From the NCBI GenBank assembly GCA_024636855.1, contig JAGXGG010000027.1:1-59064 (forward strand): DNA of 59,064 nucleotides, given 5' to 3'. Positions 27,321-44,675 of this stretch are shown here, in pieces. The notes beneath the pieces were generated by a model. That model searched no databases and was not told the DNA's origin. It saw only the letters and a program-made list of their open reading frames with translations. Every line of letters begins with the position of its first letter. Position 1 is the first letter of the stretch. Both the position numbers and the translations under genes were made by a program. The stretch comes from Ignavibacteriota bacterium. Its GTDB lineage: Bacteria > Bacteroidota > Ignavibacteria > Kapaibacteriales > UBA2268.

Positions 27321-28464
27321 CTCTTTTAAAGTTTTTAACTATCATTTCGCCTAATAATCCTAACGAAACTAATTGAACACCTACTATTATCAATGCAATA
27401 CCTAATAAGGCAGCAGGGCGGTTACTTAGGAACGTATCTCCCATTATCCACTCTACTGTAAGCCATGCATCTATTCCAAAACCTACTAATCCCATCAATG
27501 TTCCGACTGTGCCGAAAAAGTGCAACGGTCTTTTCAAGTATCTAGATGTAAATAATAACGTTAGTAAATCTAAAAATCCTTTAACATATCTCGATGCTCC
27601 GAACTTAGTTTTGCCGTGCTTTCTAGGATGGTGTTTAACTGGTATTTCAGTTATTCTAAAACCATTCCAATGAGCTAACACAGGTAAGTAGCGGTGCATT
27701 TCACCGTATATATCTAACGACTTTGCAGCTTCTGACCTATAGGCTTTTAACCCACAGTTAAAGTCATGTAATTTCAATCCGCTTGCTTTAGCCGTTATAT
27801 AGTTAAAGAACTTAGACGGCAACGTCTTATTAATCGGATCATTTCTTTTTTTCTTCCAACCAGAAACTACGTCATAACCTTCTCTAATTTTTGACATTAG
27901 ATTTGGAATTTCCATTGGGTCATCTTGCAAATCAGCATCCATAGTGATTATAACTGCACCTTTTGCCGCATTGAAACCAACTGAGAGTGCAGCTGATTTA
28001 CCATAATTCCTTCTGAAGCGTATTGCTCTAAATTTAGGATTCTTTTTATTTATCTCTCTCATTACCGAGAAAGTACTGTCAGTAGAGCCATCATCGATAA
28101 ATAGAACTTCATAGTTATTCTTCGCTTCTCTAGATAATACTCTTTCTAGCGAATTGCTAAGTTCTGTTATTGATTCTTCTTCATTGTAAGTAGGTATAAC
28201 AACAGAAATCAAAGGTTTATTAGAATACTTAGGTTTCCCTTTTTTCCTATTAGTATTATCTTCTCTTTTTACTTCTACTTTCTCAGTAGTTTCATTCTCA
28301 CTTTTTCTTTGTGGTTTTCTTTTTGGTCTATTACTTTGCCTTCTTTCTGGCTTATTCTCAGTAGTAACTTCAGCTTCTGGTGCTGGAGATTTTTCTGGTC
28401 TTGGAGTATTCCTCTTAGGCCTATTGTCTCTCTTACCATCACTTTTTTCATCACTTTTGACCAC
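27289..28464 (-). CDS. Family 2 glycosyltransferase (dolichol-phosphate-mannose-synthase-like)
   Basis: From the GTG at 28464 the protein has 391 residues. The GT-A domain starts at about 85: 'VVIPTYNEEESI', 'DDGSTDS' (124-130), 'DADLQDDP' (176-183) and 'GLKAYRSEA'. Two C-terminal membrane segments (about 310-335 and 345-370) are as in DPM/ArnC-like enzymes that load sugars onto polyprenyl phosphate. Residues 1-82 are a disordered Lys/Arg/Glu/Pro-rich tail. The frame stays open for a further 55 codons of the same composition upstream (to 28629) but without ATG, GTG or TTG, so the true start is unclear. First gene of a GT2/barrel/GT9/YciI run. Confidence 0.84.
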   Translation of the reverse strand: MVKSDEKSDGKRDNRPKRNTPRPEKSPAPEAEVTTENKPERRQSNRPKRKPQRKSENETTEKVEVKREDNTNRKKGKPKYSNKPLISVVIPTYNEEESITELSNSLERVLSREAKNNYEVLFIDDGSTDSTFSVMREINKKNPKFRAIRFRRNYGKSAALSVGFNAAKGAVIITMDADLQDDPMEIPNLMSKIREGYDVVSGWKKKRNDPINKTLPSKFFNYITAKASGLKLHDFNCGLKAYRSEAAKSLDIYGEMHRYLPVLAHWNGFRITEIPVKHHPRKHGKTKFGASRYVKGFLDLLTLLFTSRYLKRPLHFFGTVGTLMGLVGFGIDAWLTVEWIMGDTFLSNRPAALLGIALIIVGVQLVSLGLLGEMIVKNFKRDEEYQIRENL

Positions 28465-28689: not shown

Positions 28690-29451
28690 TTACAATTTAA
28701 TAATCTTTAGCATTCTAATCACTAAATCACTTTCATAAATATAAGCAAAATATACACCACTTTGTATATTTTGTATGTTTATTTCATTACCTAAATACCC
28801 ATTTTCCTTTATTAAGTTACCCGATAAGTCGAACAATTGGAACTTTTGGTATATTTCATTATTAATATTTATTTTTCCATTTGAATAATATATTGAATTA
28901 TTTTCAACATTTATAATCACACTAGATTGAGGTTGACTATAAACTACTCGAACGAAGAAATTCTCTATAAATCTATTAGTAACGTATAACCTTTGACCTG
29001 TCACAATATTAGAATCTATAAGGTCACCATTTGTAACACCATCTATTATACTTACCTCGACAACTTCTAGTGATTTAGTTCCTTTAGGTACAAAGAAATA
29101 GAAGTCTTTACCTTCTTCTCTATTACCAAGTATATCTAATTGTAGCATTACAGTATCTAAATTTTTTGTTGGTTTTTCTCTGTAATCACTATCTGTATAG
29201 ATCAGTTCATCTGGTAAATCTTCATATTGTCTTAGTATTCTAAATCCGGGTGTTATACTATTTGGAGGAGGAAATGATGGTAAATCTTTCTCATACATTT
29301 CATCAAAGTAAATAGTAGTAGAATCAGAGTAACCTGCCTTTAGAAGAAAGGCGTTTCCATCATAGTTTACATTCAAAGTGAACTGTGTGAAATCAACAGC
29401 ATAAGTGCTTGTAGTATAGCACAATAATAACATTAGTATTAGTTTTTTCAT
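28690..29451 (-). CDS. T9SS-exported protein
   Basis: The 253-residue protein starts at ATG 29451 with signal 'MKKLILMLLLCYTTSTYA'. The mature region up to about 170 has no recognised fold; 'SFPPPNSITPGFRILRQYED' is notable for proline. The C-terminal ~75 residues ('INNEIYQKFQLFDLSGNL', 'IQSGVYFAYIYESDLVIRML') form a T9SS sorting domain, although the usual NP motif is not obvious. It is the last of five consecutive exported-protein genes. Only 20 bp separate its ATG from the terminator hairpin of the preceding gene. Confidence 0.75.
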   Translation of the reverse strand: MKKLILMLLLCYTTSTYAVDFTQFTLNVNYDGNAFLLKAGYSDSTTIYFDEMYEKDLPSFPPPNSITPGFRILRQYEDLPDELIYTDSDYREKPTKNLDTVMLQLDILGNREEGKDFYFFVPKGTKSLEVVEVSIIDGVTNGDLIDSNIVTGQRLYVTNRFIENFFVRVVYSQPQSSVIINVENNSIYYSNGKININNEIYQKFQLFDLSGNLIKENGYLGNEINIQNIQSGVYFAYIYESDLVIRMLKIIKL

Positions 29452-29464
29452 ATTCGCCTCATTA

Positions 29465-29506
29465 ATAAAAAAATAGGGATAGTACATAACTGTAACTATC
29501 CCTATT
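29465..29506 (-). terminator. Strong terminator hairpin after the 1066-residue T9SS protein
   Basis: A perfect 12-pair stem AATAGGGATAGT/ACTATCCCTATT (29472-29483 with 29495-29506) has an 11-base loop; on the minus strand it is followed by TTTTTTTATT. It lies 26 bp after the stop of the 29532-32732 gene. Confidence 0.88.
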
Positions 29507-29531: not shown

Positions 29532-32500
29532 TTATTTAACTATTTGTAGTCTCATAACTTTGTTGAATGAATTACCAGTTATTTTCACGAAATAGTTACC
29601 TGAAGCAATACCATTTGCTTGGAAAGGTACTTGGTTAGAACCAGCATTCAAGTCACTATTGAAAATAGTTGCAACAGTATTACCAACAGCGTCAATCAAT
29701 GTAATGTTAACATTACCAGATTCTGGTAAGTTGAAATTAACAGTTGCATTGTCTAGAACTGGGTTAGGATAGACAGAATTAACTGTAGCCAATTCAGTAG
29801 TCTCTACTTTATTCAATTTGATTGAATTAGAAGAATTATTGATTTCTACTGAAGAGTAGTTATCAGAACTGATTGTACCGAAGAACTCACCAGTAGCAGC
29901 ATCTGATAAATCAAATGTACCGTTCAATCCTTTAGCAGAGATTGATACTGGATATTCTACGTTAGTTAATTGTATTACCGCTTCGTTGTTATTTGTCAAT
30001 TCAGTATTACCTTCAAATCTAACATCAAAAGATGGTGGAAGTGGTGGTAATTCGATAGAGTTTACTTTAGCACTATTTGAAACGAATAGAGACTTAGCAC
30101 TTTGATTGTTGTCAGAAACAACGATTTCAGTAGACATTTCTTTTAATTCATTTCTAAATGTAAGTGAATTAGAAACTTCGTCAGATAGTTTAATTTTTGG
30201 AATACTGAAATAGTAGTAACCATTTTCATCAACTTTAATCCAATAACCTAAACCTGGACGCATTTCATTAACTTCTTTGTAACCTTCTTTAGTCATATAT
30301 TTCCAAACACCATGCTCAAGCATATAGTTTTTGTCTGGTCTTGCTCCATTACCTAAAGCTCTAAAGTCTAATGCTAAAACATTGATAGGAACAGAAGGAG
30401 CACCAACAGCATTCCATCCACCTCTGTTTTCGTCTGAAGTGTAAACTCTAACAGGATTAATTTCAGGACTTACTTCAAAGATATTAGTACCTCTGAAAGT
30501 TCTGTCTATTTCATCTTCCTTATTATACTTTAAGAAATAACCTACACCTGGTCTAACTATACCATCAGATTCTTGTTGATATGAACTCAAGAAGAAATAG
30601 TAAGGGTCATTAAGAGCACCTTTCCAAGGGTTAGTATTACCTAAAGGTTGTACAGGTAATGATAGTAAGTTCCATCCAACATTGATAATTGGATTACCTT
30701 CATCATCAACATACTCAATAATCTTAGCGGGAGTGTATTCTATAATGAATTCTCTAATTCTAGGATCATCTATTTTCATAGAATATGCGAATTGTTCGTT
30801 TGGAACTGGAGTACCTTCTAACCACATATTAAGAGGTTCGAAAGATTTACCATTATCTGTATCTCTTATGAATAAAGAAGAACCTTCTATAAAGTCTTTT
30901 CTGTTCCATGTAATGATAATAGGATATCTTTGATCCTTATTAACTTTACCTGGATTGAATTTAACTTTGAAAAGTAATGAACGAGTAGTATCATCAGAAC
31001 TTCTAATGTCTCTAGAGTTTGCTTTTACTTGTTCGTCATTAGTAGCGAAGTCATTCATTCCAAATGGAGCAAGTCCTGGTATTTCATCACCATAAGAGTT
31101 AACTGGGAAGAATCTAGCATCTAATTCATTTTCTAATAAAGGAACATTGTATTCAGTTTCACCGAATAATGAATCTACACCAATTGTAGCTCTATCTCCA
31201 GTACCAAAGATAAGAGTATTAACTTCACCATCTACATTTGCTACTGTTATAGGAATACCATTTAGCTTTCTACCTTGAGGATCTTGACCTTCTAAAGGTG
31301 GTCTAAAGTAAATAAATGTTACTTTAATTCTAATAGGAGAAAGATCTGCAAATTCCGATTTGAAAGTTATATAACCAGTATAGATACCAGTTTTTTCAAT
31401 CTCAGGATTATCAGTAGCATCATCACCAGCTTGTATTTTAGCAGGGTCACAAGAAATTTGTAATGATATTCCACCTTCATCATTAGGAATGTCATTTAAT
31501 TCATCTCTTTCAGAAGCTTCACCTAATATACCATTATCTATGTAAGGAATATAACCTTCAGTAGTCAAAGAAGGAATAGGATTATTTGGTTGTAATGTTC
31601 TAAATTCTAACCAAGGTTGATCAGAAACTACTTCTATATCTTTTAATAAAGTACCAGCTTCTACGTTCAATACTTCAACTGTTCTAGTAGCTGTATTTGG
31701 GAATGGATTAGGATTTCTATTAGGATTCAAATCTACAGTCATAGGATCAACTAATTCATACAAATCGTTACGACCTTCAACTAATTTAATTGGTGGTTGT
31801 TGTCCGATTTGTCTATTAACTTGAAAACCTAGTTTTGGTTGATTTGTCATATATTGGAACCAAATACCACCTGGTAAAATTAGGTTTGGTGGCTCATTTT
31901 GAGTTCTATTATCCATACCAGCAAGACCAGTAAATCGAGCACCTAAGTTTGAATTATAATTGGGTCTTTGTGGATTAGGGAAATCTTGACCTACTTGTGG
32001 ATCATAACCTCTATAATCTACAAATGGAGCTTCTTGTAATATGTTCATATCGTTATAAACGATAGTATCACGTCCAATATGTAAATATGTAAAGTTTAGA
32101 TTCGAAGCAGGCTCACTTTGGTTCAATACAGCTTTAAATCTTACGTATAATAAAACGTCAAAATCTTGAAATGTTAAACTAGTATTAGGTAATGGCTTAT
32201 TACCACTAGCTGTGATTACAACAGCATGACCTCTATTTGAAGTAGTAGGAGAGGCATTGATATGAGTGTAAAATGCTTTATCTACTACATCACTCCAGTC
32301 AATTTGAAAGCCTTTAGCCAAAGGATCTCTTAACTTTGCTGAACTAGGAGCATATTTAGGATGAGTTGTTTCTACTCCTACAGGAGTTACAGACGCCGAA
32401 TCATAAAAAAGCTTAAATTGAAAACTTTTTATCGGAGTTATAGGTAAATCAACTGAGTATCTGTTTTCATTAACAGCCCATCTATTATCTATAAATACAG

Positions 32501-32732
32501 GTACTACGAATTCTCTTTCGTACTCTGTATTTCTTGGCATTATGATTCTACCATTTGGGAACCATAAATCGTTGTACGCACCCTCTTGACCAGTCAATGA
32601 TAGTACTGGTAAATTTGGGTAGGTAGGGTTTTGAGCGAACGAATTACCAAATCCGACAATAAACAGCAGGGCTGCTATTGCTAGACTAGTTAGTTTGTTT
32701 ACGCCCTTCACTTTTGTATTATTTCTATACAT
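29532..32732 (-). CDS. T9SS-exported protein with a cohesin-like N-terminal domain
   Basis: The 1066-residue protein has a signal ending 'VGFGNSFAQ'. Residues about 50-235 look cohesin-like: 'IKSFQFKLFYDSASVTPVGV' and later 'FDVLLYVRFKAVLNQSE', the layout of a nine-strand sandwich describing a surface-displayed adaptor. A long middle region (250-640) is unassigned. Between about 670 and 850 two copies of a motif occur: 'GWNLLSLPVQP' ... 'PGVGYFLKYN' and 'GWNAVGAPSVP' ... 'PGLGYWIKVD'. The C-terminal ~85 residues ('VNSVYPNPVLDNATVNFNL', 'IDAVGNTVATIF', 'ASGNYFVKITGNSFNKVMRL') are a canonical T9SS sorting domain. It ends a three-gene run starting at 35798. Confidence 0.82.
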   Translation of the reverse strand: MYRNNTKVKGVNKLTSLAIAALLFIVGFGNSFAQNPTYPNLPVLSLTGQEGAYNDLWFPNGRIIMPRNTEYEREFVVPVFIDNRWAVNENRYSVDLPITPIKSFQFKLFYDSASVTPVGVETTHPKYAPSSAKLRDPLAKGFQIDWSDVVDKAFYTHINASPTTSNRGHAVVITASGNKPLPNTSLTFQDFDVLLYVRFKAVLNQSEPASNLNFTYLHIGRDTIVYNDMNILQEAPFVDYRGYDPQVGQDFPNPQRPNYNSNLGARFTGLAGMDNRTQNEPPNLILPGGIWFQYMTNQPKLGFQVNRQIGQQPPIKLVEGRNDLYELVDPMTVDLNPNRNPNPFPNTATRTVEVLNVEAGTLLKDIEVVSDQPWLEFRTLQPNNPIPSLTTEGYIPYIDNGILGEASERDELNDIPNDEGGISLQISCDPAKIQAGDDATDNPEIEKTGIYTGYITFKSEFADLSPIRIKVTFIYFRPPLEGQDPQGRKLNGIPITVANVDGEVNTLIFGTGDRATIGVDSLFGETEYNVPLLENELDARFFPVNSYGDEIPGLAPFGMNDFATNDEQVKANSRDIRSSDDTTRSLLFKVKFNPGKVNKDQRYPIIITWNRKDFIEGSSLFIRDTDNGKSFEPLNMWLEGTPVPNEQFAYSMKIDDPRIREFIIEYTPAKIIEYVDDEGNPIINVGWNLLSLPVQPLGNTNPWKGALNDPYYFFLSSYQQESDGIVRPGVGYFLKYNKEDEIDRTFRGTNIFEVSPEINPVRVYTSDENRGGWNAVGAPSVPINVLALDFRALGNGARPDKNYMLEHGVWKYMTKEGYKEVNEMRPGLGYWIKVDENGYYYFSIPKIKLSDEVSNSLTFRNELKEMSTEIVVSDNNQSAKSLFVSNSAKVNSIELPPLPPSFDVRFEGNTELTNNNEAVIQLTNVEYPVSISAKGLNGTFDLSDAATGEFFGTISSDNYSSVEINNSSNSIKLNKVETTELATVNSVYPNPVLDNATVNFNLPESGNVNITLIDAVGNTVATIFNSDLNAGSNQVPFQANGIASGNYFVKITGNSFNKVMRLQIVK

Positions 32733-32760
32733 TAGGACACCTTAAATTATTTATAAAAAA

Positions 32761-33921
32761 TTAATTATTTATTATTTTCAATATTTTTGTTTTGTTACCA
32801 TCGGTAACTTTAATGAAGTATATACCTTGCTTCATGAGCTTTGTATCATATACTTTATTAAAATTACAAACTTGCGTATCAATCAATAATCCAGTATAAT
32901 TATACACTTCAATAGAAAGTTCTTTATCTTTACTCATAATAACTCCGTTACTATAAACAAAGCTTATATCAGTTTCAACTGATGCTATTATAGAATCTTT
33001 TTTCGTTTCTAGATTATTTATTTCAAAAGAACTGGTTGGAAAATTAGTAGCACATATACATTCTGTACTTTTAACGGTTTCCATTTTTATATTAACTTTA
33101 GCTGAATCTTTTTTGTTAGATTTTACTCTCAAAGTAAGATTCAAGTCTTCTATATTGAGAACTTTCAAGTCAATTAAATAACTGTTAAGTTCTTCTTTTG
33201 TTACATTTTCAACTAAAAGTGATTCAGTTCCAACAACTTCTAAGAGATCTAAACTGTCTTCCTCAATAGTAATTCTTGTTTGCCAATAGTCTAAGGATTG
33301 CATTATCCCAAGATCAACACCAACATTAATTGATATAGTACTATCTGCTTTTATCTCTAATTGCTTTTTGTCAATATTAAAACCCAATTTTCTTTCAGGT
33401 TTATCAGCTATTGTACCTTTTATACTTATATCCTTTATAGTATCAACAATTCCTTTGAAACCATCAATAGGGTAGAAGTATTTAACTTTAAAGTAAGCGT
33501 CTTCTTCACATTCACCGATAAATTTTCCAGCGAAAGCGACAAGTGGCATATCACCACTTACTGGATTGGGAAATGCGTCGAAACTAACATATCCTTCCAT
33601 TATTATCTCACCACGTTCACTATCGAATGTAGCATCTTTAAATTTAAAGAACTGTGATATAGTATTAGTGAATAACTTTTGATTCATTTGTACTACATCT
33701 GGATTGTATTCTATTACTATTTCGAATCCAACCAAAGAATCAGATTTGATAATATTACCTAAATACGGGGCAATAATTACATCTTTTTGATATTCCTTAC
33801 CACACAAATCCATTGAACTTTTGTCCAATATCTCTAAGTTGTAAGTCAATGATTTAGCTATGGAGTTGCCTATAAAAAGCAACCCCAAAGCAAAAATCAA
33901 ATATATTCTAGAACAATTCAT
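32761..33921 (-). CDS. T9SS-exported cohesin-like protein
   Basis: The 386-residue protein has signal 'IYLIFALGLLFIGNSIA'. Residues about 40-160 match the cohesin layout: 'SLVGFEIVIEYNPDVVQM', then 'GEIIMEGYVSFDAFPNP' and 'MPLVAFAGKFIGECEEDAYF'. A second beta domain follows (about 175-280). The last ~65 residues ('LSIEVYNYTGLLIDTQ', 'MKQGIYFIKVTDGNKTKILK') form a T9SS sorting domain, with no obvious NP motif. Its start is two bases after the stop of the dockerin-like gene, so the two are translated from one message. The cohesin assignment is by pattern, not by a profile search. Confidence 0.75.
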   Translation of the reverse strand: MNCSRIYLIFALGLLFIGNSIAKSLTYNLEILDKSSMDLCGKEYQKDVIIAPYLGNIIKSDSLVGFEIVIEYNPDVVQMNQKLFTNTISQFFKFKDATFDSERGEIIMEGYVSFDAFPNPVSGDMPLVAFAGKFIGECEEDAYFKVKYFYPIDGFKGIVDTIKDISIKGTIADKPERKLGFNIDKKQLEIKADSTISINVGVDLGIMQSLDYWQTRITIEEDSLDLLEVVGTESLLVENVTKEELNSYLIDLKVLNIEDLNLTLRVKSNKKDSAKVNIKMETVKSTECICATNFPTSSFEINNLETKKDSIIASVETDISFVYSNGVIMSKDKELSIEVYNYTGLLIDTQVCNFNKVYDTKLMKQGIYFIKVTDGNKTKILKIINN

Positions 33922-33923
33922 TA

Positions 33924-35798
33924 TTATCTATTGATAATAACTTTTTGAACTTTATTCACATTGTTTCCTTCTAATTTCAAGAAGTAAACACCTGAGCTAA
34001 GTTCGTTACCATTGAAATCATTCGCTGACCAAGGTCTTTGAATAGATTCACCAGCTCTTAATTCTTCATTGAATACAGTAGAAACTTTATTACCAACAGC
34101 ATCATATACTGAAAGTGTGTAAGTACCACTGTTTTCTACTGCAACACTGTATGAAGTATAACCACTTACATAAGGATTAGTAGATAAAGAAAGACTAGCA
34201 TTAACAACTTCTGTTTGCTCTACTATAGAACCAACATTATTGTCATTTACTCGGATATTGTTCAACTGTAAGTTACCATCTAAATTAGTAACGTCTACAT
34301 ATAATACTGGTTCAGATGAAGTGAATTCACCTGTACTAGCAAAGTAAACACCATTAGATGATTTGTTAGCCAATTTAATTTCGTTGTCTATGTTCAATTC
34401 AACATTCTCAACAGTACCATTAATATCAAAAGAGAATGATAATGGACCATTATGATTTTTATTGATATAAACTGGGATACTTGTAATACCATTATGTACT
34501 ACTTTTTCACCAAGAACGATATTATCAGCAAGTAATTCAGCTTTTTTACCCTTGAATACAACTGTATCTAGCACCCAAGGTAATTCAGGAACTGAAGCAG
34601 CTAAATAAGTCATTATAACAGCAGCATCGTGCTCATTAACTTGATAGAATACTTTTTTCAATGAAGTAACTTCAGAAGGTAAATCATCAAAATAGTTCAT
34701 GCTACGAGTAGTAACTTCAACTTTTTCAGTAACACCAGGAGAAATAGTTCTATAGAAGTATCTACCACTGTGATTCACGTCACCGTGATAAGCTGCTCTT
34801 CTTCTAACACTGTCCAAAGGAACTTGTGTAGCCATAGATCTTAGAATTAATCTTACATCGTTAAAAGTAACATATCTGTTTTGTGGTAAACCAAAGTGTC
34901 TTTCAGCAGGTGTTTTAGAGAAATCAACATCTCCGTCACCCCAGAATTCTTCGATATTCAAAGTCTTTTGAGCAGTGAATAGAATTCTATAGTTAGAAGC
35001 ACCTGATGGTTGCCAAGCGTTAGATAAAGTTGTGCTATCAGTAGCTTGAGGCAGTACACAATATGTGCTATCAAGAGGATTATCAGTACAAGGCCATAAA
35101 CCATTTAAAAAGTCATCAAATTCACCTTTTATACCTACAGAAGCATCTTTTATGATAACGTCTGTTTCAGTAGTTAAAGTATTACCACCGATTTGACCAT
35201 AAGCAAACTCTATATCACCTTGAGGTGTAGCATCATCATCTGACTTATATAGAATTACTTGGAAATCAGCAATACTTGATGGTTTAGTTTTGTCGTTAAT
35301 ATTTAGATCTCTCCATTCGATAGTCAATTTGTCAGACTCTCTTTTGTAAAGAATTCTAGTTCTTGTGTATAATTGTAACGCTTCTACATCAGTTCTGTAA
35401 ACGTGATCACCCCAAAAAGGAGCAACAACATTTTGTTGATACGTAGAAGGTAAATCTTTAAACAAACCAGTAGGGTTTGCTTGTTTCAAAAAGTTAGGAC
35501 TGTCAAATGTAACAAAACCATTCACACAGATCCATAATTCTGTATATACCTCACCATTATATTCAAATGGGAATCCTATGCTTATTTTAGCATATCCATC
35601 ATCCGCATCTTGAATAGCAGGTGGTTTGATAAAATCAACAGCATCAAGTACAGTTCCGCCAACGATTGGCTCATAGTTCTTTTGTACTAAATGCAGAGAT
35701 TTGAACTCACCCGGTACATCAGACTTTAGCGTTAAACTACTTGAAAGTGCTATTACCGCAACAGTCAACGCAGCTATTATGCTTTTTGTAAGTCTCAT
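33924..35798 (-). CDS. T9SS-exported protein with nidogen-like and dockerin-like parts
   Basis: The 624-residue protein has signal 'IIAALTVAVIALSSSLTLKS'. Residues about 55-225 resemble an extracellular nidogen-like domain ('FPFEYNGEVYTELWICVNGF', 'VVAPFWGDHVYRT', 'GDIEFAYGQIG'). Between about 285 and 410 two dockerin-type calcium loops appear: 'GDVDFS' leading to 'YVTFNDVRLILRSMAT', and 'GDVNHSG' leading to 'YQVNEHDAAVIMTYLAA'. Each loop is split by an insertion of about 14 and 44 residues. A beta domain follows, and then a T9SS sorting domain ('YDAVGNKVSTVFNE', 'LSSGVYFLKLEGNNVNKVQK'). First gene of a three-gene run with the cohesin-like proteins. Confidence 0.78.
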   Translation of the reverse strand: MRLTKSIIAALTVAVIALSSSLTLKSDVPGEFKSLHLVQKNYEPIVGGTVLDAVDFIKPPAIQDADDGYAKISIGFPFEYNGEVYTELWICVNGFVTFDSPNFLKQANPTGLFKDLPSTYQQNVVAPFWGDHVYRTDVEALQLYTRTRILYKRESDKLTIEWRDLNINDKTKPSSIADFQVILYKSDDDATPQGDIEFAYGQIGGNTLTTETDVIIKDASVGIKGEFDDFLNGLWPCTDNPLDSTYCVLPQATDSTTLSNAWQPSGASNYRILFTAQKTLNIEEFWGDGDVDFSKTPAERHFGLPQNRYVTFNDVRLILRSMATQVPLDSVRRRAAYHGDVNHSGRYFYRTISPGVTEKVEVTTRSMNYFDDLPSEVTSLKKVFYQVNEHDAAVIMTYLAASVPELPWVLDTVVFKGKKAELLADNIVLGEKVVHNGITSIPVYINKNHNGPLSFSFDINGTVENVELNIDNEIKLANKSSNGVYFASTGEFTSSEPVLYVDVTNLDGNLQLNNIRVNDNNVGSIVEQTEVVNASLSLSTNPYVSGYTSYSVAVENSGTYTLSVYDAVGNKVSTVFNEELRAGESIQRPWSANDFNGNELSSGVYFLKLEGNNVNKVQKVIINR

Positions 35799-35879: not shown

Positions 35880-38800
35880 TTATTTAACAATCATCACTTT
35901 GATGAAGTCAGTATTACCATCAGCATTCATTCTGATACTGTATGCACCACTTGATAATTCAGAACCAAATCCAGTTCTAGAATTCCAGTTAAGTGTATGT
36001 TCACCAGCACCGAAGAAATCACTTCCAACTATACCGATTACTTTTCCTACTTCGTCGATTAATTCGAACTCAACATTAGCTGCTTTGTTCAAGTTAAACT
36101 TGATAACACTTTCGCCATTTACTGGGTTAGGTGATACGCTAGTTATAGAATTAGTAGTAGTAAGTTGAGTATCTTCAACATCACTCATTACATCGTTGTA
36201 GATAACGAATGCTTTTATAGTTGCATTAGTTATAGTCAATGTAGCTATGTTACCTTGTAGGTCAAACGAAGAGTGAGTAGGTGAAATAGATCTCACAGAA
36301 GGATCATTCATCTTGATATGGAAGTAAGAACCATCAGAGATAGGATCTCTTAAATACCAAGTAGAACCTTGTGGATTTCTAGTTGCATCATCTACATCAG
36401 GAATAGTTGTAATATCCCAAGATACAGTTACAGGATAGTTAATAGCAGTTTGACCACTTTCACCACCAGCTTGTATTTGAGCAACATAGATTAAATCACT
36501 GTTGTTACCACTAGTAGGATATATACTTCTCAAGATACCATTGATTGTAGGTAATGTCCATCTTGCATCGAATACGTCTTGTTGTGGATAAGGAGGTAAT
36601 TCATATTCACAGAAGTTGTGATCTAATTTACCAATATCATCACCATCTCTACCATCACCTGTACTAACATTCGCATTAGCTACACCAAATTCAAGAACTT
36701 GGAATGAACCGATTGAGTTAGAAACAGTAATTGGTGCTGTAAAGTTAGTAGCGTCAGATAATTTCAATCTAAAGCTCATGATTGTAGTTTCTCCATCAGC
36801 ATCTGTAGCTTTGATTTGAACAGTAATTCTACCGTCAGCATCTACAGGCACATTAGCAATTTCAGCAGTAAAGATTAGTTTAACTTTAACTGAATCATTA
36901 TCTATTGTAGCACCATCTAATATGTATTGATCTAATTCAACACCTGCAGCTGGTAGCTCTACTACTAGAGTTACTTTCTCTTGAGGAGTTACATCGTTAT
37001 CTCTTTCAAAGTCTTTATCAATAACATAAATGAAGTTGTTAGTTGACAATGAACTGTTAGGATCGATACAGTCTACATCTGGAGCAAGTGCAAGTCTAGG
37101 ACCTTGATTGAACTCATCAACTCTTAAGTCAAAGACTTTTAAAGCTGGAAGTCCATCTTCATCAATTACTAATACTATTACTTTCTCATCTTTAAGTGCA
37201 TCGCCTACTTCTGGAGTACCATATAGTAAACCACTTTCAGGATTGATTTTCAACCATTCTGGTGTATATTTATCATCTACACCATAGTCAACTCCTTCTT
37301 CCCAAACACCAGCTTCGTCATAACAAGGATCTTTTGCTATGTCACCTCTACCAGAGTAGATTAACTCGAATGTATGTTCTTGTTGGAAGTTAGGATCTTT
37401 AACTTTAATAGCTCTTGCACTATCTAGTAGTTGATTGTTGTAATCAAAACTTTCAGTAGCATTATCTAAAGAGTTAGTTAGTATAGTAGGAGCAAAGTTT
37501 ACAAAAACTTCTAGTTTTTGCTCTAATCTTCCTCCATGACCATCATTAACAACGAATACAAATGCTGTATCTGTGTTATACTCTTCATTTTGTCTGTTTG
37601 CAGGTTCAAGTAATGTTTCAACTTCTGCTCTATCTATTCTGATGTTTAATTTACCAGAAGTTGTAAAGTCAGCTGCAAAATCATCTGTATCAGTTTCACC
37701 ATCATATCTGTAGATATATTTATCTGCCATCCATATTGGTCTTTCTTGATCGATAAATGTATCGATACCACCTTGATCATTTGATATAGTAACTGTATCA
37801 ATAACTACTGTATCACCAGCAGAAATGATTTTGTTTATGAAACCATAAGCAGTTCTACCATATCTGAAATCCCATCCGTGTTCTGAAGCTGCATAAGCAT
37901 CTTCAATCTCGTCATCAGTATTGATGTCGATTTGGAATCTAAGTTTATCAGTTACGTTAGCTATTAATCTAGGTGAATTCTCATTTGTCTTATCACAAGT
38001 CAATACTGTTGGCTCATATTTAGCAATAGTATCTTTGATAGTTACTCCATCAGACTCATATCTAAATAGTGTCTCAGCCGAATAGTTTTCGTCTAAGTAA
38101 ACTGGTGGTTGATCAACTACGAATAATTCGAAGTCATATTCAGTTTTCCAACCATTAGCACCACCAAAATTGATAGTATCTTGTTGTAAGTATCTAGCTC
38201 TATCTACATCATAAGATCCAGCATTGAAGTAAGGACCATAAGTTTCGATAAACTTGTCTATTTGTTCTTGAGTAAATAACCCAGAAGCAACCATAGAATC
38301 TAATGTTCTGTAATGAGGAGGGTAGTTAGCAGCAGAAACTGCAACCTTCTCGCCACCTGGCACTACATAAGGGTTAACTGGATGACCTTTCAATACAACG
38401 TAACCGTTAGCATTATCTTTTATGTTATTAGCATTACTAGAATAGATAGTATCGGCTTGTAACCAATTAGCTAAACCAGAGTTGCTAGGAACATCCCAAG
38501 TGTAAGTTAGATGTGTATAGTTATCACCATCAGCTAATGCACGAGGATCGTAGTAGTTGTTAGAATCAACAGCTGTAATTGATAAGATACTGTCTCTACC
38601 ATCAGCGTAATTACCTGGGTAAGTTCTATCTTCAGTTACGAATATTTTGTTTGTAAAATCATCAATATAAATAGTATCCATTTGATTATTAGCTCTCTTA
38701 ATAGGATCTAATGATGGAACCAATTTCATAATTGTGTCATTTTGTAATGCAACGATGTTACCAGTAAATACAGGAGGTAGAGTAGATCTAACTATTTTGA

Positions 38801-41800
38801 ATTCCATACCATCGTCATAAGCAGCTATTACACCTTCTTTCCAAAGAACTTGTCTAGAGATAACTCTGATTACGTCACCAGTATCTACAGGTAGAGCTTC
38901 GTATCTCTCACCAGCAAAATAAGTAACGATGTCTTCAGTAATATTAGAAGGATCATCAATAGCAGGTCTGTTGCTGAACAAGTCAGAAACTTTACCTAAT
39001 TGTCTGAAATCTGCTTCGTATTTTCTACCTGGTACAGTTGCACCAGCTTCATTGTAAGCGTTGTCTTCTAATTTGGCTAATAAACTAAATCCAGCACCGA
39101 AGTTAAATAGACCTTCAGAAGTTCTTCTGTAAAGTGTATTTGGATTTCTGTTAGTAGAATCAGGAACAAACTCAACTCTAGATCTGAATACTTCTCTGTA
39201 AGGAGCAGTTTCTGATACTTGTTGTAAGTTAGTTCTGATATAGTCACCAGTAGTTTCGTTTATAACGAAGAATACTGTTTCATTTGTAATTTCAGGTATA
39301 TGGTTGCTTCTTTCAACAAAGCCATCATAATCTGCATGTGATTCTAAGTATAATGGGTATCCGATAGGGTGGTAGAAATTACCATCGTTATCAGGCATAA
39401 ACTCAGATTGAAGTGCAGTGATATAAGGGAATTTCAAATCACCATTATCATCTAACAATCCAACACAATAAGGATCTCTAGTTGTTCTTCTTACATATTT
39501 TCCATCAGAAGGTTGAGACGGTGCTACAAATCTTCTAGTAGTGTATGGGATACCAACTGCAAAGTCTTCAATAGGAGACATTATTCTCTTAGAGTAATCA
39601 GCAGTTTTAATGTCTGTACCTTTGTCATATAAGTCATAGATTTTACCAGACATCAATACTTTTTCATTGATACTAGTAGCAGCAGGCGTATTTTCATCGC
39701 CAGTTGCATTTTCTAATAATATAGGAGTATAAGTATATTCATCGAATATAGATTCGAATGGACCTTGCTCTAATGGATCAGCAGAGTTTCTAACAAACGG
39801 TAGTGGAGATGTATTATCACCAGCAATAAAGAATGTTTCATTCAATGCTAATGGATAACCTAAGTCATTAATTACATCAACTGTTATGTTTGCTTGAGTT
39901 CTACCCCAGAAGTTACCGTTAAGTGAGTTAGTTCCACCTAGACCTAAGCCTAAGTTACCAGCTAAAACACCTTTAGTATTAGGAGCATCAGGTAAACGAA
40001 CAATAAATCTAGCGTTGTTACCATATACAGAGTTACCTGCAACTGGACCAGTACCTACTGGCAATGGACCTTGCATTTCACCATAGATAACTGCACTTGC
40101 TAAATCAGAAGAAGCCTCGTTAGAAGAAACACTATTGTTACCATCTAATACGATAGGACCAGAAATAGTATTTTGTTCAACTCCGATATCAGATAAAGCA
40201 GTGTTAGCAGAGATTAATGATCTGCCAAAGATTAATTTCAAATCAAAGTTATCAGAATAGATAGCAGCACCAGTATAAGCAGTGTTGTTTAACATTCTAA
40301 CACGGTTGAAAGAAACTGAATCAGTTCTGTTCAATTGTTGAACATCAGCATTGTCTAAGATATAAATCGCACCACCAAGACCAACACCATTTTCTGGGAA
40401 GTTAGTACCTGGGTGCATTCTAGCTACATCAAAGTGACCAGCGTTAGCAGGGTTTGTTTCATTCCAAGTAGCACCACCATCTTCTGTTTTCAATAGAGTA
40501 CCGTAGTCTCCTACTGAGTATCCTACTGAATTAGTAGCGAAGTGAATACCTTGTAAACCAAATCTTGTAATGTCTTCCATCAATGTCCAAGTAGCACCAC
40601 CATCAGTTGTAGCTAACATATCGCCATATACTGTAGTAATGAAACCTTTAGTAGAAGATATGAATACGATGTCAGTCAAGTTAGCAACTGTACCAGTTGT
40701 AACTGTATTCCATGAATCACCACCATCAGTAGTAGATAACAAAGTACCTTTCTCACCAATGATAAATCCTTTATTAACACTTGTAAAGAAGATTTTTGTT
40801 AAGTCATAATTAGGTATTGGAGGAACAACTTCTTCCCATACAGTACCACCATCAGTAGTACGTAGGATTAGTCTATCGTCTCCAACTACGAAACCTGAAT
40901 TCAAGCTACCATAATAAACACCATTAAGGTTTTGTTGTTGTGGTTGCATTGTACTCCATGTTGCACCTGCATCATGTGATTCGTATATTAAACCATTATT
41001 AGTAACAGCATATAAATCATTTTGACCAATAGAATAGAAGTCATTGAATTGATTTAATGTGTTAGTATTTATGTTGAACCAAGTGCTACCCGCATCAGTA
41101 GTTTTCTTCATGATACCTTGAGCACCAACGATATAACCAGTGTTTGCGTTAACGAATTCAACGTCAGTTAATCTGTGATTAGTGTTTGAAGTTGGGTATT
41201 CCCAAGTATCGCCACCATTTTTAAATTTAACGATAGTACCAAATAACCCAACAGCATAACCTGTTTGAGCAGAAGTAAAGTAAGTAGCTAATAATGGAGA
41301 TCTTGTTCTGTATACACCTTCAGCGAATTGTGTAGCACCAGAACCCATTTCACCAGCAGCTCTTTCTTCGTAAATGGCTTGGTTACCTTTAAATTGAGTT
41401 AACATTCTTGCATCAGGAGGGAAACTTACTGCACCATAAGTGAATACGTCATCTCTTGAAGTCATGCCAACTGCAACATTTTTAGAATCATAAGTAATAT
41501 TATCTGCATCAGATGTAAAGTATCTTCTGTTTAAGTTAAAAGGTTCAACCATTGAAACAGCACCACCGTTACCATTGTAAACAGTATTACCATTAAATTC
41601 AACACCTTTAACTAAGTTAAGATCACCACCAGCAGTATAGATTGCTCCACCACCTCTTAATTGACCAAGATTTTTGTCAGCTACATTCATACCTACAGTG
41701 TTGTTCAAGAACATTGCTCTAGATAATTGTACCGCTCTTTGGTAATATGGAGGATTGTCAGCGATTGGGATTTGGAAGTGAACCGCACCACCAGCATATC

Positions 41801-43868
41801 CAGCAGTGTTGCCTTCAAATCTGATTGGGAATTTACCACCATAACCGATTAATTCATCTAAATTAATACCACCAGCACCAGTTATAGAACCTTGTCTCTT
41901 AGAGTAGATTGCACCACCCCAAGAAATAGCTGCGTTATTATTAAATTGAATATCATAACCATAATCTCTAGTTAACAATAATGCATCAGAACCACCAATA
42001 ATAGTAGTTAATACTGGATTAGAGTTACCATCAACATAGATAGCTCCACCAGCACCTGAAGTATTACCTTCAAATCTAGTTGGGTTACTATCACTTTCTC
42101 TAGCAGGACCACCTTTTACAAATAGTCTGTTTAAAGAATTTTCTACATAAATTGCACCACCCATTGAGTATAACCCAGCTACTGAACCAACTGTTTCGTC
42201 AGTTAAGTATTTAGCAGCAGTTTTATTACTTTCAAAGTGACCAGCAACTTGTAATGAAGTATATCTACCAGCGTAGATAGCACCACCACGAGAACCAGAA
42301 GAACTACCATTAGCTTGGTAGTTATTTGCTTCGTTACCATTAGCAACAAATGTATCAGGAGTATTGAAATCAACTTCAGTACCATTTATCATGATACTAT
42401 TGTTAATACCAAAACCTACATCAATTTTTCTATTTTCTTGACCTTCAGTACCTGAAATGTAAACAGCGCCACCAAAAGCAGTGTTACCGTAAACTTGAGG
42501 ATACATAGCAGGTTCGTTCAATAAGTCAGAAACGATTTTAACTGGAGGATTACCTACAGTAGTTTGACCGTAATTAGCTAATTGAACTTTGTTATTTGTG
42601 AAAGTCAAGTTTCTCATTCTACCTAAGTAAAGAGCTAAACGACCATCATCATGTCCCATTCTTTCATAATTGCTAAGTGGCTCAGCGCCAGCTTCATCAA
42701 TTAAGTCAATTGCAGGGATTGGATTTTGAACTACTACACTAGATGGGTTACCATCTCTGTCAGTAATATTAGGATTCTTGTTTGAAGCATAAGTACCAAC
42801 TACATTGTTGATTTGAGTTCTATCTATAGTAGTAGGTATTTCAGAAGGAGCTTGTAGTAATTGTAAAGCACCACCTTTAAATCTAGCATTGTTGCCAGAA
42901 AATTCTACATTCAATAACCAAGTTCTAGAAGAGAAAGTAGATATCGCACCACCACTACCGTTAGTTAGCATGTTAATTTTATTATTAACTGCAGCCCAAG
43001 CAGAGTTAGCACCACTTTGATTGTAAACAGGGTCACTATCTACAGTAGTATCTTTCTTAAAGTTTTCGAAAGTAGCATTTCTGAAGAAAGCTGATCTAGC
43101 ACCAGGAAGAACAATAACATGTCCCCATTCTACAGATACGTTATTTATTGGTTGTCCAACAAATCTAATCTTTTCTTTTACAACATTAACTGATCTACCA
43201 CCAATTCTTGACCATGGCTTAACAGTTAAGTTAACGTCATTGTTAGGATCTTGGTTTAATCTAGCAGCTACGAACATAATAGCTTCTTCAAAAGTTATAA
43301 TATCCAAATTTGGATCAGCCATAACTGAAGCAGCGTTTAAAGGATTCAACTCCGTAATTTGACGAGTTGATCTATTTAATACAACATTAAATAAGTAGTT
43401 ATACTTATTCGGGTGTACTGATTTATCTCTAACTGTTGTAACATCGATAGTACGAAATACATCAGTAGATGGAGGATTATTTCCATCAAATAAGAAATAG
43501 TCAATGTCCGTATAACCAGTCCAGCTGTACGGGTTTTGAGTAGAACCAGCAATACCCAATGGATCGATACCATGTGGATTGCTAGTATAAGTAGCTTCAG
43601 CAAAACCATCTGCGATGATTCTACCACCAGTTGAATCTATTAATCTCCCGTTAGGGTGAAAATAGACAGTTGTACCAGGCTCAATTATCAATGTACCGCC
43701 AACCACATACTCTCTTTCGACAGTATAGATGGAATCCTTTACAAAGACTCTTACATCACCTGGAGCTATCCTTCCGGATATTTTAACGGTCTTCTGCGCA
43801 TATCCTGAACTTGAAGACAGGATAAATGCGAAGGCCATGAGTACGCAAAGACGAATTAATCGTTGCAT
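35880..43868 (-). CDS. Giant T9SS-exported beta-helix/BNR-propeller/cadherin-like surface protein
   Basis: The protein has 2,662 residues from ATG 43868; a GGAGGT Shine-Dalgarno three bases upstream decides this start over an ATG six codons earlier. The signal is 'RLIRLCVLMAFAFILSSSSG'. Residues about 300-770 carry at least nine 'GGAI(Y/S)' and 'F-x-x-N' motifs of Pmp-type beta-helices. At about 855-1145 seven 'DGG-x-T/S-W' BNR repeats form a Ycf48-like propeller. The helix motifs then resume ('GGAIYILDNAD', 'GAAIYSDNFDLK'). Further on come cadherin/Ig-like blocks ('WLKINPESGLLYGTPEVGD', about 2205-2225). The end is a T9SS sorting domain ('VSPNPVNGESVIKFNL', 'LSSGAYSIRMNADGN'). Confidence 0.88.
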   Translation of the reverse strand: MQRLIRLCVLMAFAFILSSSSGYAQKTVKISGRIAPGDVRVFVKDSIYTVEREYVVGGTLIIEPGTTVYFHPNGRLIDSTGGRIIADGFAEATYTSNPHGIDPLGIAGSTQNPYSWTGYTDIDYFLFDGNNPPSTDVFRTIDVTTVRDKSVHPNKYNYLFNVVLNRSTRQITELNPLNAASVMADPNLDIITFEEAIMFVAARLNQDPNNDVNLTVKPWSRIGGRSVNVVKEKIRFVGQPINNVSVEWGHVIVLPGARSAFFRNATFENFKKDTTVDSDPVYNQSGANSAWAAVNNKINMLTNGSGGAISTFSSRTWLLNVEFSGNNARFKGGALQLLQAPSEIPTTIDRTQINNVVGTYASNKNPNITDRDGNPSSVVVQNPIPAIDLIDEAGAEPLSNYERMGHDDGRLALYLGRMRNLTFTNNKVQLANYGQTTVGNPPVKIVSDLLNEPAMYPQVYGNTAFGGAVYISGTEGQENRKIDVGFGINNSIMINGTEVDFNTPDTFVANGNEANNYQANGSSSGSRGGAIYAGRYTSLQVAGHFESNKTAAKYLTDETVGSVAGLYSMGGAIYVENSLNRLFVKGGPARESDSNPTRFEGNTSGAGGAIYVDGNSNPVLTTIIGGSDALLLTRDYGYDIQFNNNAAISWGGAIYSKRQGSITGAGGINLDELIGYGGKFPIRFEGNTAGYAGGAVHFQIPIADNPPYYQRAVQLSRAMFLNNTVGMNVADKNLGQLRGGGAIYTAGGDLNLVKGVEFNGNTVYNGNGGAVSMVEPFNLNRRYFTSDADNITYDSKNVAVGMTSRDDVFTYGAVSFPPDARMLTQFKGNQAIYEERAAGEMGSGATQFAEGVYRTRSPLLATYFTSAQTGYAVGLFGTIVKFKNGGDTWEYPTSNTNHRLTDVEFVNANTGYIVGAQGIMKKTTDAGSTWFNINTNTLNQFNDFYSIGQNDLYAVTNNGLIYESHDAGATWSTMQPQQQNLNGVYYGSLNSGFVVGDDRLILRTTDGGTVWEEVVPPIPNYDLTKIFFTSVNKGFIIGEKGTLLSTTDGGDSWNTVTTGTVANLTDIVFISSTKGFITTVYGDMLATTDGGATWTLMEDITRFGLQGIHFATNSVGYSVGDYGTLLKTEDGGATWNETNPANAGHFDVARMHPGTNFPENGVGLGGAIYILDNADVQQLNRTDSVSFNRVRMLNNTAYTGAAIYSDNFDLKLIFGRSLISANTALSDIGVEQNTISGPIVLDGNNSVSSNEASSDLASAVIYGEMQGPLPVGTGPVAGNSVYGNNARFIVRLPDAPNTKGVLAGNLGLGLGGTNSLNGNFWGRTQANITVDVINDLGYPLALNETFFIAGDNTSPLPFVRNSADPLEQGPFESIFDEYTYTPILLENATGDENTPAATSINEKVLMSGKIYDLYDKGTDIKTADYSKRIMSPIEDFAVGIPYTTRRFVAPSQPSDGKYVRRTTRDPYCVGLLDDNGDLKFPYITALQSEFMPDNDGNFYHPIGYPLYLESHADYDGFVERSNHIPEITNETVFFVINETTGDYIRTNLQQVSETAPYREVFRSRVEFVPDSTNRNPNTLYRRTSEGLFNFGAGFSLLAKLEDNAYNEAGATVPGRKYEADFRQLGKVSDLFSNRPAIDDPSNITEDIVTYFAGERYEALPVDTGDVIRVISRQVLWKEGVIAAYDDGMEFKIVRSTLPPVFTGNIVALQNDTIMKLVPSLDPIKRANNQMDTIYIDDFTNKIFVTEDRTYPGNYADGRDSILSITAVDSNNYYDPRALADGDNYTHLTYTWDVPSNSGLANWLQADTIYSSNANNIKDNANGYVVLKGHPVNPYVVPGGEKVAVSAANYPPHYRTLDSMVASGLFTQEQIDKFIETYGPYFNAGSYDVDRARYLQQDTINFGGANGWKTEYDFELFVVDQPPVYLDENYSAETLFRYESDGVTIKDTIAKYEPTVLTCDKTNENSPRLIANVTDKLRFQIDINTDDEIEDAYAASEHGWDFRYGRTAYGFINKIISAGDTVVIDTVTISNDQGGIDTFIDQERPIWMADKYIYRYDGETDTDDFAADFTTSGKLNIRIDRAEVETLLEPANRQNEEYNTDTAFVFVVNDGHGGRLEQKLEVFVNFAPTILTNSLDNATESFDYNNQLLDSARAIKVKDPNFQQEHTFELIYSGRGDIAKDPCYDEAGVWEEGVDYGVDDKYTPEWLKINPESGLLYGTPEVGDALKDEKVIVLVIDEDGLPALKVFDLRVDEFNQGPRLALAPDVDCIDPNSSLSTNNFIYVIDKDFERDNDVTPQEKVTLVVELPAAGVELDQYILDGATIDNDSVKVKLIFTAEIANVPVDADGRITVQIKATDADGETTIMSFRLKLSDATNFTAPITVSNSIGSFQVLEFGVANANVSTGDGRDGDDIGKLDHNFCEYELPPYPQQDVFDARWTLPTINGILRSIYPTSGNNSDLIYVAQIQAGGESGQTAINYPVTVSWDITTIPDVDDATRNPQGSTWYLRDPISDGSYFHIKMNDPSVRSISPTHSSFDLQGNIATLTITNATIKAFVIYNDVMSDVEDTQLTTTNSITSVSPNPVNGESVIKFNLNKAANVEFELIDEVGKVIGIVGSDFFGAGEHTLNWNSRTGFGSELSSGAYSIRMNADGNTDFIKVMIVK

Positions 43869-43964
43869 AATACCTCCAATAAACAAATTATTATTAAAAA
43901 ATTAACTTTTAGTTTCATTATTATAGTGTTTAGTTTAATTCAAATGCTATTTCGCAATTGAATG

Positions 43965-44675
43965 TTAATCAATTTTTGTGCCAAGCATTGATAATCTGAC
44001 TTTAGATTTATTTCCAAACTCCGAATTCTCGCTTAACTCTACTACTGATTGATATATATTTTTTGCATTATCTTTTTTACCAGCTTGCTCATAATTTAAA
44101 GCAGCGAAGTATAAGTATTTAGATTTTAGCACATCTTCTTCTAAATTTTCTGCTGCCTTTTTGTAATTATCTGCTGCGCTTTCTAGCTTTCCATCCTCTT
44201 CATCGCATAGAGCTAAACCTGCGTAAGCTCCTGATCGCACGACTTGTGCCTTGCTATCTGTAGCTTTATCGAAGTAGTTTCTTGCCTCAACAAACTGATT
44301 AGAACTAACATAAGCGTTACCTGCATATAGTGCAGCTAACTTACCTTCGTTTGTCCCATCATACTTATTAGCTATGTCAACTAATCCGACAGCGTCTATA
44401 CCTATTGCAGTTGTGCCACCATCCAGTGCTACAGCATAGTTGCCAGCATCATACTCAGGTAATATTTTTGATAAAGCCATAGCTGCTTCTTGAGTTGCCT
44501 TTTCTGTTTGACTAGCTGAGTAATAGTAGTAACCTACTGCAGCTAATGCAATTACTATGATTATTCCGAAAATCGTTCCGTTCTTTTTGAGTTTTGCAGC
44601 TGATTCTTCATCAACTAAATTCTCAGTTAACTTTCTTCCGATTTTCAATTCTTCTTGTTCTTCCGAATGGGACAT
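43965..44675 (-). CDS. TPR-containing membrane-anchored protein
   Basis: The 236-residue protein has a soluble N-terminal ~32 residues, one membrane segment ('IFGIIIVIALAAVGYYYYSA', about 34-54) and a periplasmic alpha-helical region with TPR-type repeats ('KLAALYAGNAYVSSNQFVEA', 'AAENLEEDVLKSKYLYFAA', 'EQAGKKDNAKNIYQSVVE'). The layout matches YfgM-like or general tetratricopeptide proteins of Bacteroidota that accompany the Sec translocon. There is no direct evidence for that partner. It lies between the E1 dehydrogenase and the giant protein, all on the same strand, with gaps of 240 and 96 bp. Confidence 0.78.
   Translation of the reverse strand: MSHSEEQEELKIGRKLTENLVDEESAAKLKKNGTIFGIIIVIALAAVGYYYYSASQTEKATQEAAMALSKILPEYDAGNYAVALDGGTTAIGIDAVGLVDIANKYDGTNEGKLAALYAGNAYVSSNQFVEARNYFDKATDSKAQVVRSGAYAGLALCDEEDGKLESAADNYKKAAENLEEDVLKSKYLYFAALNYEQAGKKDNAKNIYQSVVELSENSEFGNKSKVRLSMLGTKID

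Follow-up and report, generated by a model that had tools for sequence, protein, structure and literature searches.

Results and Discussion

A six-gene block encoding T9SS-exported proteins

From the 3.1-Mb genome of an Ignavibacteriota bacterium (assembly GCA_024636855.1), which has Ignavibacteriae bacterium HGW-Ignavibacteriae-4 among its near relatives, we analysed contig C68 (JAGXGG010000027.1), a stretch of 59,064 nucleotides that is called the window throughout. It harbours six genes transcribed on the minus strand in the order TPR, BIG, P1, P2, P3 and P4 (Table 1). P1, P2 and P3 denote P0001, P0002 and P0003, BIG is the gene for the 2668-aa protein, and "the order" refers to the order of the window genome within the class Ignavibacteria. 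A preliminary description had presented P1, P2 and P3 as co-directional genes that combine dockerin-like and cohesin-like domains with sorting domains of the type IX secretion system (T9SS). Its coordinates, strand and gaps (2 bp between P1 and P2, 28 bp between P2 and P3) are exact.

The sorting domains assigned to the ends of P1, P2 and P3 were borne out by TIGR04183 (cut-off 23 bits), which exceeded this score in each of them (31.1, 29.0 and 35.2 bits, respectively) as well as in P4 (26.2 bits), and fell slightly short of it in BIG (22.4 bits). Compared to PDB sequences, profile A4 retrieved T9SS sorting domains and nothing else. As to the secretion machinery, a search covering SprA detected SprA_N in the genome (157.6 bits, E 3.5e-46). 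The NIDO family PF06119, present in 12 of the 39 P1 family members, had no match in P0001 itself in the Pfam scan.

Table 1. Genes and domains of the six-gene block, with positions in the window
Feature	Position	Strand	Evidence
TPR_21 protein, 236 aa, first gene of the block	43965..44675	-	PF09976, 29.6 bits (cut-off 25.5); one N-terminal membrane segment by eye
BIG, 2668 aa: Chlamydia-PMP (beta-helix) repeats, YCF48/BNR-type propeller, T9SS tail	35880..43886	-	Pfam PF02415, PF14870
P1, 624 aa: NIDO-like domain, split dockerin, cohesin-like sandwich, T9SS tail	33924..35798	-	Pfam and TIGR04183 scans, profiles, AlphaFold
P1 residues 40-275, nidogen-like (NIDO)	34974..35681	-	PF06119 in 12/39 family members, best 1.9e-6
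P1 residues 286-408, dockerin-like, one insert per calcium loop, invariant LPW at end	34575..34943	-	Ligand columns, profile, HMM, repeat, model
P1 residues 347-383, variable insert of calcium loop 2	34650..34760	-	Predicted beta-hairpin at 346-362
P1 residues 421-540, cohesin-like beta-sandwich	34179..34538	-	Cohesin profile P=5e-5; Foldseek; VIA
P1 residues 546-624, T9SS type A sorting domain	33927..34163	-	TIGR04183, 31.1 bits
P2, 386 aa: two cohesin-type sandwiches, T9SS tail	32761..33921	-	Profile, model, TIGR04183
P2 residues 26-172, first cohesin	33406..33846	-	Profile P=3e-10; model Z 15.5
P2 residues 173-310, second cohesin-like sandwich	32992..33405	-	Profile P=9.2e-4; Foldseek; profile A6
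P3, 1066 aa: N-terminal cohesin, C-terminal part common to other T9SS proteins, T9SS tail	29532..32732	-	Profile, TIGR04183
P3 residues 38-240, N-terminal cohesin-like domain	32013..32621	-	Profile P=4.3e-10; cohesin HMM
P4, 265 aa, T9SS-tailed, last gene of the block; start probably 12 codons later	28690..29487	-	TIGR04183, 26.2 bits

P1 carries a dockerin-like domain with interrupted calcium loops

Two split loops of the dockerin type had been read in P1 by pattern. Ligand columns, an internal repeat, a profile of class dockerins and the helices predicted by AlphaFold agree with this assignment. In the P1 family alignment D290, D314, D340 and D391 are conserved in all 39 members, D288 and N342 in 35 each, while position 292 is occupied by D in 29 and by D or N in 35, and position 344 by N, D or S in 36 of the 39. 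The conserved stretches include residues 286-346 and 391-408 and follow the pattern W-G-D-G-D-x-D, insert, V-T-x-N-D and G-D-V-N-H-x-G-R, insert, N-E-x-D-A. Like a type I dockerin, P1 has two F-hands whose calcium loops present D or N ligands at positions 1, 3, 5 and 12 and are each followed by a helix. Unlike the compact type I dockerin, both loops are interrupted, by inserts of about 15 and about 40 residues. The insert of loop 2 (residues 349-383) shows 28% mean pairwise identity and the P1 sandwich 26%, compared to 53-66% for the dockerin loops.

The two F-hands align in register with a score of 13.0 against -25.9 +/- 5.8, a value that one in 163,782 randomly drawn pairs of bipartite windows reached. 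Profile-profile alignment (hhalign) with the dockerins of the class gave P=1.5e-4 with order-level rows and 5.1e-5 with all rows, whereas reversed and other segments scored 0.031 or worse; the aligned stretch extends only from the second half of repeat 1 to the start of loop 2. A hidden Markov model (HMM) was built from 28 class dockerins, namely those of 27 out of 30 loci plus L001 (L107 and L108, empty at the coordinates used, and the partial L116 were dropped). Applied to the P1 relatives, it scored up to 14.3 bits at the expected place, compared to at most 5.2 bits in 780 shuffled sequences. It exceeded all shuffles in 16 of 38 P1 relatives and in no member of the other five gene families. 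PF00404 was not among the Pfam families listed for the 39 P1 family members (25 of 33).

Dockerin and sandwich of P1 were modelled together by AlphaFold2 from 48 rows (mean pLDDT 87.3, pTM 0.84). The model comprises a short helix at 306-309, helices at 312-324, 335-339 and 389-399, a hairpin at 346-362 within loop 2, and the sandwich at 427-527. It includes the two F-hand helices (312-324 and 389-399) for which the preliminary description had looked to structure prediction, and the predicted fold has the element order of a dockerin with calcium loop 2 opened by a hairpin. When this two-domain model was used in structure searches (Foldseek, VIA), the sandwich filled the lists, and missing dockerin rows are uninformative. 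Among PDB sequences, profile A5 found no dockerin and no cohesin, and phmmer searches with P1 and P3 returned nothing useful.

Cohesin-like domains in P1, P2 and P3

Thirty cohesins from the class were combined into a profile, which was aligned by hhalign with the block proteins, again with order-level rows. It matched P2 at residues 20-165 (P=3e-10) and P3 at 35-245 (P=4.3e-10), and with lower significance P1 at 412-545 (P=5e-5) and P2 at 160-318 (P=9.2e-4); the best value among all other and reversed segments was 0.003. The corresponding HMM scored above all shuffles in 37 of 39 P2, 31 of 39 P3, 1 of 38 P1 and 3 of 39 P4 proteins, and in none of BIG or TPR. Pfam recognised part of this: PF00963 matched 11 of the 40 proteins in the P2 family at E<=10 (best 2.3e-12; the gathering score was not reached in P0002) and 2 of the 40 in the P3 family (best 0.039). 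Four of ten P2 relatives scanned singly were over the PF00963 cut-off, with two stretches each, all four from family f19.

The predicted model of P2 (pLDDT 91.9, pTM 0.79) retrieved the type II cohesin dyad 3l8q as the top three Foldseek matches, with E 3e-12 over both domains, followed by integrins at 7.4e-10. Its first domain superimposes on the ScaC cohesin 4uyq_A over 136 residues of this 143-residue cohesin (Z 15.5, 2.3 A), and aligns with Z 14.4 to the cohesin of the C. thermocellum type I pair 1ohz. Integrin ectodomains covered both P2 domains with Z 10-11. For the second domain the best PDB sequence matches of profile A6 were cohesins, at E 0.048 and 0.07. The P1 sandwich had C. perfringens cohesin-like modules on top in Foldseek (E 2.5e-4), whereas in VIA the top rank went to Als adhesins (Z 9.4), with which cohesins (best 8.8) were tied to within 1.

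The cohesin-like starts of P2 and P3 claimed earlier are upheld by these profiles and, for P2, by the sandwich predicted at its N-terminus: judging from the model, P2 starts with a clear cohesin fold followed by a weaker second one, and the P3 N-terminus is a cohesin by profile. Including the C-terminal sandwich of P1, the block probably contains four cohesin-like domains, more than the preliminary description had recognised. The N-terminal cohesin of P3 is the most conserved of them, with 36% mean pairwise identity versus 25% for the first cohesin of P2.

The block is conserved across most of an order

All loci compared had been selected for holding P1. Of a first group of 40, 38 showed the full set of six genes in this order and on a single strand, as did 25 of 28 added later, which makes 63 of 68. 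Four of the five incomplete loci stop at a contig end, and the fifth (L105) lacks P4, with the position of its TPR gene beyond the fetched start. The TPR family was present in 39 and BIG in all of the 40 loci. Since the profiles used for the 40-locus count included the tested loci, the 28 new loci and leave-one-out profiles served as independent checks. With length-filtered rows, the latter linked all members within the order at E<1e-5 (TPR 27/27, P4 28/28, P2 30/30). In the two further families f13 and f19 they linked TPR in 8 of 8 and P4 in 7 of 8 cases at the same threshold, and P2 in the four f13 loci. For the five f19 P2 proteins, sequence gave no link to the P2 of the order (E 0.001 to 13); their equivalence is judged from position and, for the four examined, from tandem cohesins.

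P1 matched well past the tail (E below 1e-20) in 52 of 60 relatives. Among the matches listed for a sample of the class, 55 of the order's 62 genomes had P1 at E<=1e-20. Six of the seven order genomes lacking P1 belong to one genus of family f7. In the seventh, P1 was probably cut off, because P3 begins at base 69 of its contig. Outside the order, most of P1 was matched in families f13 and f19, and the other matches in the class were C-terminal only. Whole P3 is distributed likewise among 395 genomes sampled from the phylum, with only its C-terminal part matched elsewhere. Throughout most of this order of Ignavibacteria the form of the block hardly varies. The second half of P3 (the GWNLLSLPV stretch plus the tail) recurs in many T9SS proteins of the phylum, and the scan gave no Pfam name for this module.

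Candidate partners of the P1 dockerin

Each locus has one dockerin, as judged by the HMM across the block families. In the rest of the genome PF00404 gave two matches, one of which was counted over the cut-off and scored 17.5 bits, below the cut-off, in a whole-protein scan. With one dockerin per locus and only one other of note in the genome, P1 is the main candidate partner of the block cohesins, and pairing with neighbouring cohesins is plausible from gene content, gene order and co-variation. The gene order of the class is compatible with such pairing: at least 34 of the 69 canonical dockerins on the list have a listed cohesin no more than 6 kb away. Among the matches listed, 47 cohesins are located 400-6000 bp from a dockerin, all 47 on the same strand and 45 of them downstream, the order seen in the block. 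The dockerin and cohesin lists (150 cohesin rows) stem from overlapping, not identical, genome samples. Cohesin contacts of dockerins are reported for positions 11, 12, 18, 19, 22 and 23 in a passage of PMC4728124. A single binding mode would be expected for P1, because the residues at these positions differ between its two repeats.

To compare candidate partners, distance correlations between the domains were corrected against BIG as background. The first set of 28 genomes leaves out L100 (a near-duplicate), L085 (P1 masked by an antisense frame), L104 (cut by the contig end) and nine f13/f19 loci (too distant). In this set the dockerin and P2 cohesin 1 gave the largest correlation of 45 domain pairs (r 0.41, Mantel p 0.001), compared to 0.05 for the dockerin with the P3 cohesin and 0.08 with P1's own sandwich. 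Two further backgrounds gave the same best cohesin for the dockerin, and P2 cohesin 1 was the best of the four cohesins in 492 of 500 random subsets of 18 taxa. A second set comprised 27 of 28 further genomes (L214, without the BIG gene, was left out). Here the values were 0.33 (p 0.003) for P2 cohesin 1, 0.19 for the P3 cohesin and 0.18 for the P1 sandwich. Over all 55 genomes the dockerin correlated with P2 cohesin 1 at 0.38, level with the highest pair, and with the second domain of P2 at 0.21 (p 0.001). The NIDO domain of P1 correlated with the P3 cohesin at 0.27 in the first set and 0.37 in all 55 genomes. As a hint only, given modest correlations among related taxa, co-variation favours the first cohesin of P2 as partner of the P1 dockerin.

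A putative surface complex held together by a dockerin-cohesin joint

Our preferred interpretation, about evenly poised between right and wrong, is that the products of the locus form, after T9SS export, a non-enzymatic complex on the cell surface in which the divergent dockerin of P1 docks onto a neighbouring cohesin, most likely the first one of P2. The conserved ligand columns suggest that this dockerin would bind calcium. Docking would hold P1 and P2 on the outer surface, and further cohesin-type contacts could add P3 and BIG. The domains would probably represent modified, non-cellulosomal versions of dockerin and cohesin that act as the clip of a T9SS-exported surface complex. A more specific form of this proposal, which we advance only tentatively, is an enzyme-free apparatus found in most of the order and two further families, with the P1 dockerin inserted into the first cohesin of P2 and the NIDO domain into P3 as a vertically inherited joint.

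Several observations weigh against this interpretation. PF00404 and PF00963, which the preliminary description had named for checking the domains, do not match P1, P2 or P3 of the window at E<=10; it is the profiles of class dockerins and cohesins that match. Profile-profile tests against domains of the same class were needed because the Pfam and NCBIfam scans alone would have spoken against the domains, and P0001 itself scored -1.2 bits with the class dockerin HMM. In the 27 further genomes the NIDO domain tied with P2 cohesin 1 as best correlate of the dockerin, and the dockerin-P2 cohesin 1 pair ranked sixth of 45, with the pair of NIDO and P3 cohesin in first place (0.51). This second set is a partial replication, because 20 of its 27 genomes come from genera already represented in the first set; the remaining seven (G010, G019, G025, G033, G059, G117 and G283) represent six new genera. 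Nor is the block universal: among the 60 relatives, two of family f1 had no P1 match, and three of f1 and three of f7 matched in the tail region only. The structural role is argued from conservation and from the absence of recognised enzymes, and over its propeller BIG matches the glycosylhydrolase model NF045728 below threshold (46.3 bits versus a cut-off of 175). Finally, cohesin-type folds also serve as plain immunoglobulin (Ig)-like modules, and the dockerin may sit rigidly on P1's own sandwich, as the pTM of 0.84 over both domains suggests.

These last two points lead to a different view of P1 that we consider rather unlikely, namely that of a closed unit in which the dockerin is a calcium-stabilised spacer on its own sandwich and the sandwiches of P2 and P3 are plain Ig-like modules that do not bind dockerins. 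The invariant LPW lies at the junction of the two domains, at least 24 of the 69 listed class dockerins have a cohesin within 400 bp, and the folds are shared with adhesin-type modules, as the Als and integrin matches illustrate. However, the corrected correlation of the dockerin with its own sandwich (0.08-0.18) compares to 0.33-0.43 with P2 cohesin 1, and the strong conservation of the dockerin loops is not paralleled by the sandwich. Less probable still, the dockerin would be received by the N-terminal cohesin of P3, with P2 acting as a spacer. This would join the most conserved cohesin to the most conserved part of P1, but the corrected dockerin-P3 cohesin correlation (0.05-0.19) is low, and this cohesin correlates better with the NIDO domain in both genome sets and in their combination.

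A cellulosome-like degradative scaffold, in which the cohesins of P2 and P3 recruit dockerin-bearing enzymes to the surface, has a precedent in the T9SS-anchored cohesin scaffold with dockerin enzymes proposed for Ca. Stygibacter in a part of PMC8542988. We regard it as highly improbable here because no enzyme or carbohydrate-binding domain exceeded its cut-off in the six-gene block in the Pfam and NCBIfam scans and the other dockerin of the genome resides in a T9SS protein of 472 aa without an enzyme domain. For the same reasons the label "cellulosome-like" used in the preliminary description is not supported.

Relation to known dockerin-cohesin systems

Nor would such a complex be the first outside the Firmicutes. 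Dockerins and cohesins are widely known outside cellulosomes, where their function is called unknown in a passage of a 2017 review citing Peer et al. 2009 (PMC5244752), and a cohesin scaffold bearing a T9SS-type C-terminal domain (CTD) together with dockerin enzymes was inferred in Cloacimonadota, as reported for Ca. Stygibacter in the section cited above (PMC8542988). As in the non-cellulosomal cases mentioned in these excerpts (PMC5244752, PMC8542988), the dockerin and cohesins of the block occur in secreted proteins without cellulases; the block differs in its fixed set of six genes, its T9SS tails, its retention in most of the order, the split-loop dockerin and the lack of a recognised enzyme. 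With Ca. Stygibacter it shares a cohesin scaffold on a T9SS-type CTD outside the Firmicutes, but the dockerin-tagged hydrolases and the 3,755-aa scaffold with carbohydrate-binding modules described there (PMC8542988) have no counterpart in the block.

A literature search covering titles and abstract starts of open-licence PMC papers found no description of the six-gene block. New is the split-calcium-loop dockerin-like domain and its setting in a conserved T9SS block in which no enzyme is recognised. With a single dockerin and four cohesin-type domains, this block offers a small, testable case for the use of these modules as a structural joint. If the preferred interpretation is right, bacteria with a T9SS would join exported proteins into surface complexes through docking that depends on calcium, and the split loops would represent a kind of dockerin missed by the current Pfam model. 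On the more specific proposal, the clip known from cellulosomes would serve here as a structural joint of the cell surface passed on by vertical descent.

Other dockerin, cohesin and T9SS genes

A second, canonical dockerin/cohesin theme exists in other families of the class, where dockerin genes adjoin T9SS genes that encode three or four cohesins in tandem (L194, L191 and L193). At L194, a gene combining beta-helix, dockerin, cohesin and T9SS domains, cut at the contig end, is followed by a T9SS gene with three cohesins. Unlike in the block, the dockerins of these pairs are recognised by Pfam and have other partner domains.

In the genome of the window, the second dockerin protein (contig C13, L189, 1944-3359; 472 aa) has no enzyme domain and shows a cohesin-like start by eye, a long-linker dockerin of 17.5 bits and a T9SS tail below the Pfam cut-off; the genes downstream of it look flagellar export-like by eye. 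Matches to PF00963 on contigs C108 and C74, the latter counted over the cut-off, were rejected as cohesins because whole-protein Pfam scans assign HYDIN/ASH-type Ig domains and no cohesin to these proteins. A protein of 1282 aa on contig C42 (L190, 79-3924) consists of many WD40-type propeller repeats and a Cep192/HYDIN-type domain, with a C-terminus that is T9SS-like by eye.

Near the block, at 21427-23022 of the window, lies the gene for a further T9SS-tailed protein of 531 aa (PF18962, 38.7 bits). The block is followed by genes for a GT2 glycosyltransferase, an outer-membrane protein (OMP) beta-barrel and a GT9 protein (25449-28464), which are perhaps linked to the surface glycan used for anchoring T9SS cargo; genes of similar length occupy this place in many f1 loci.

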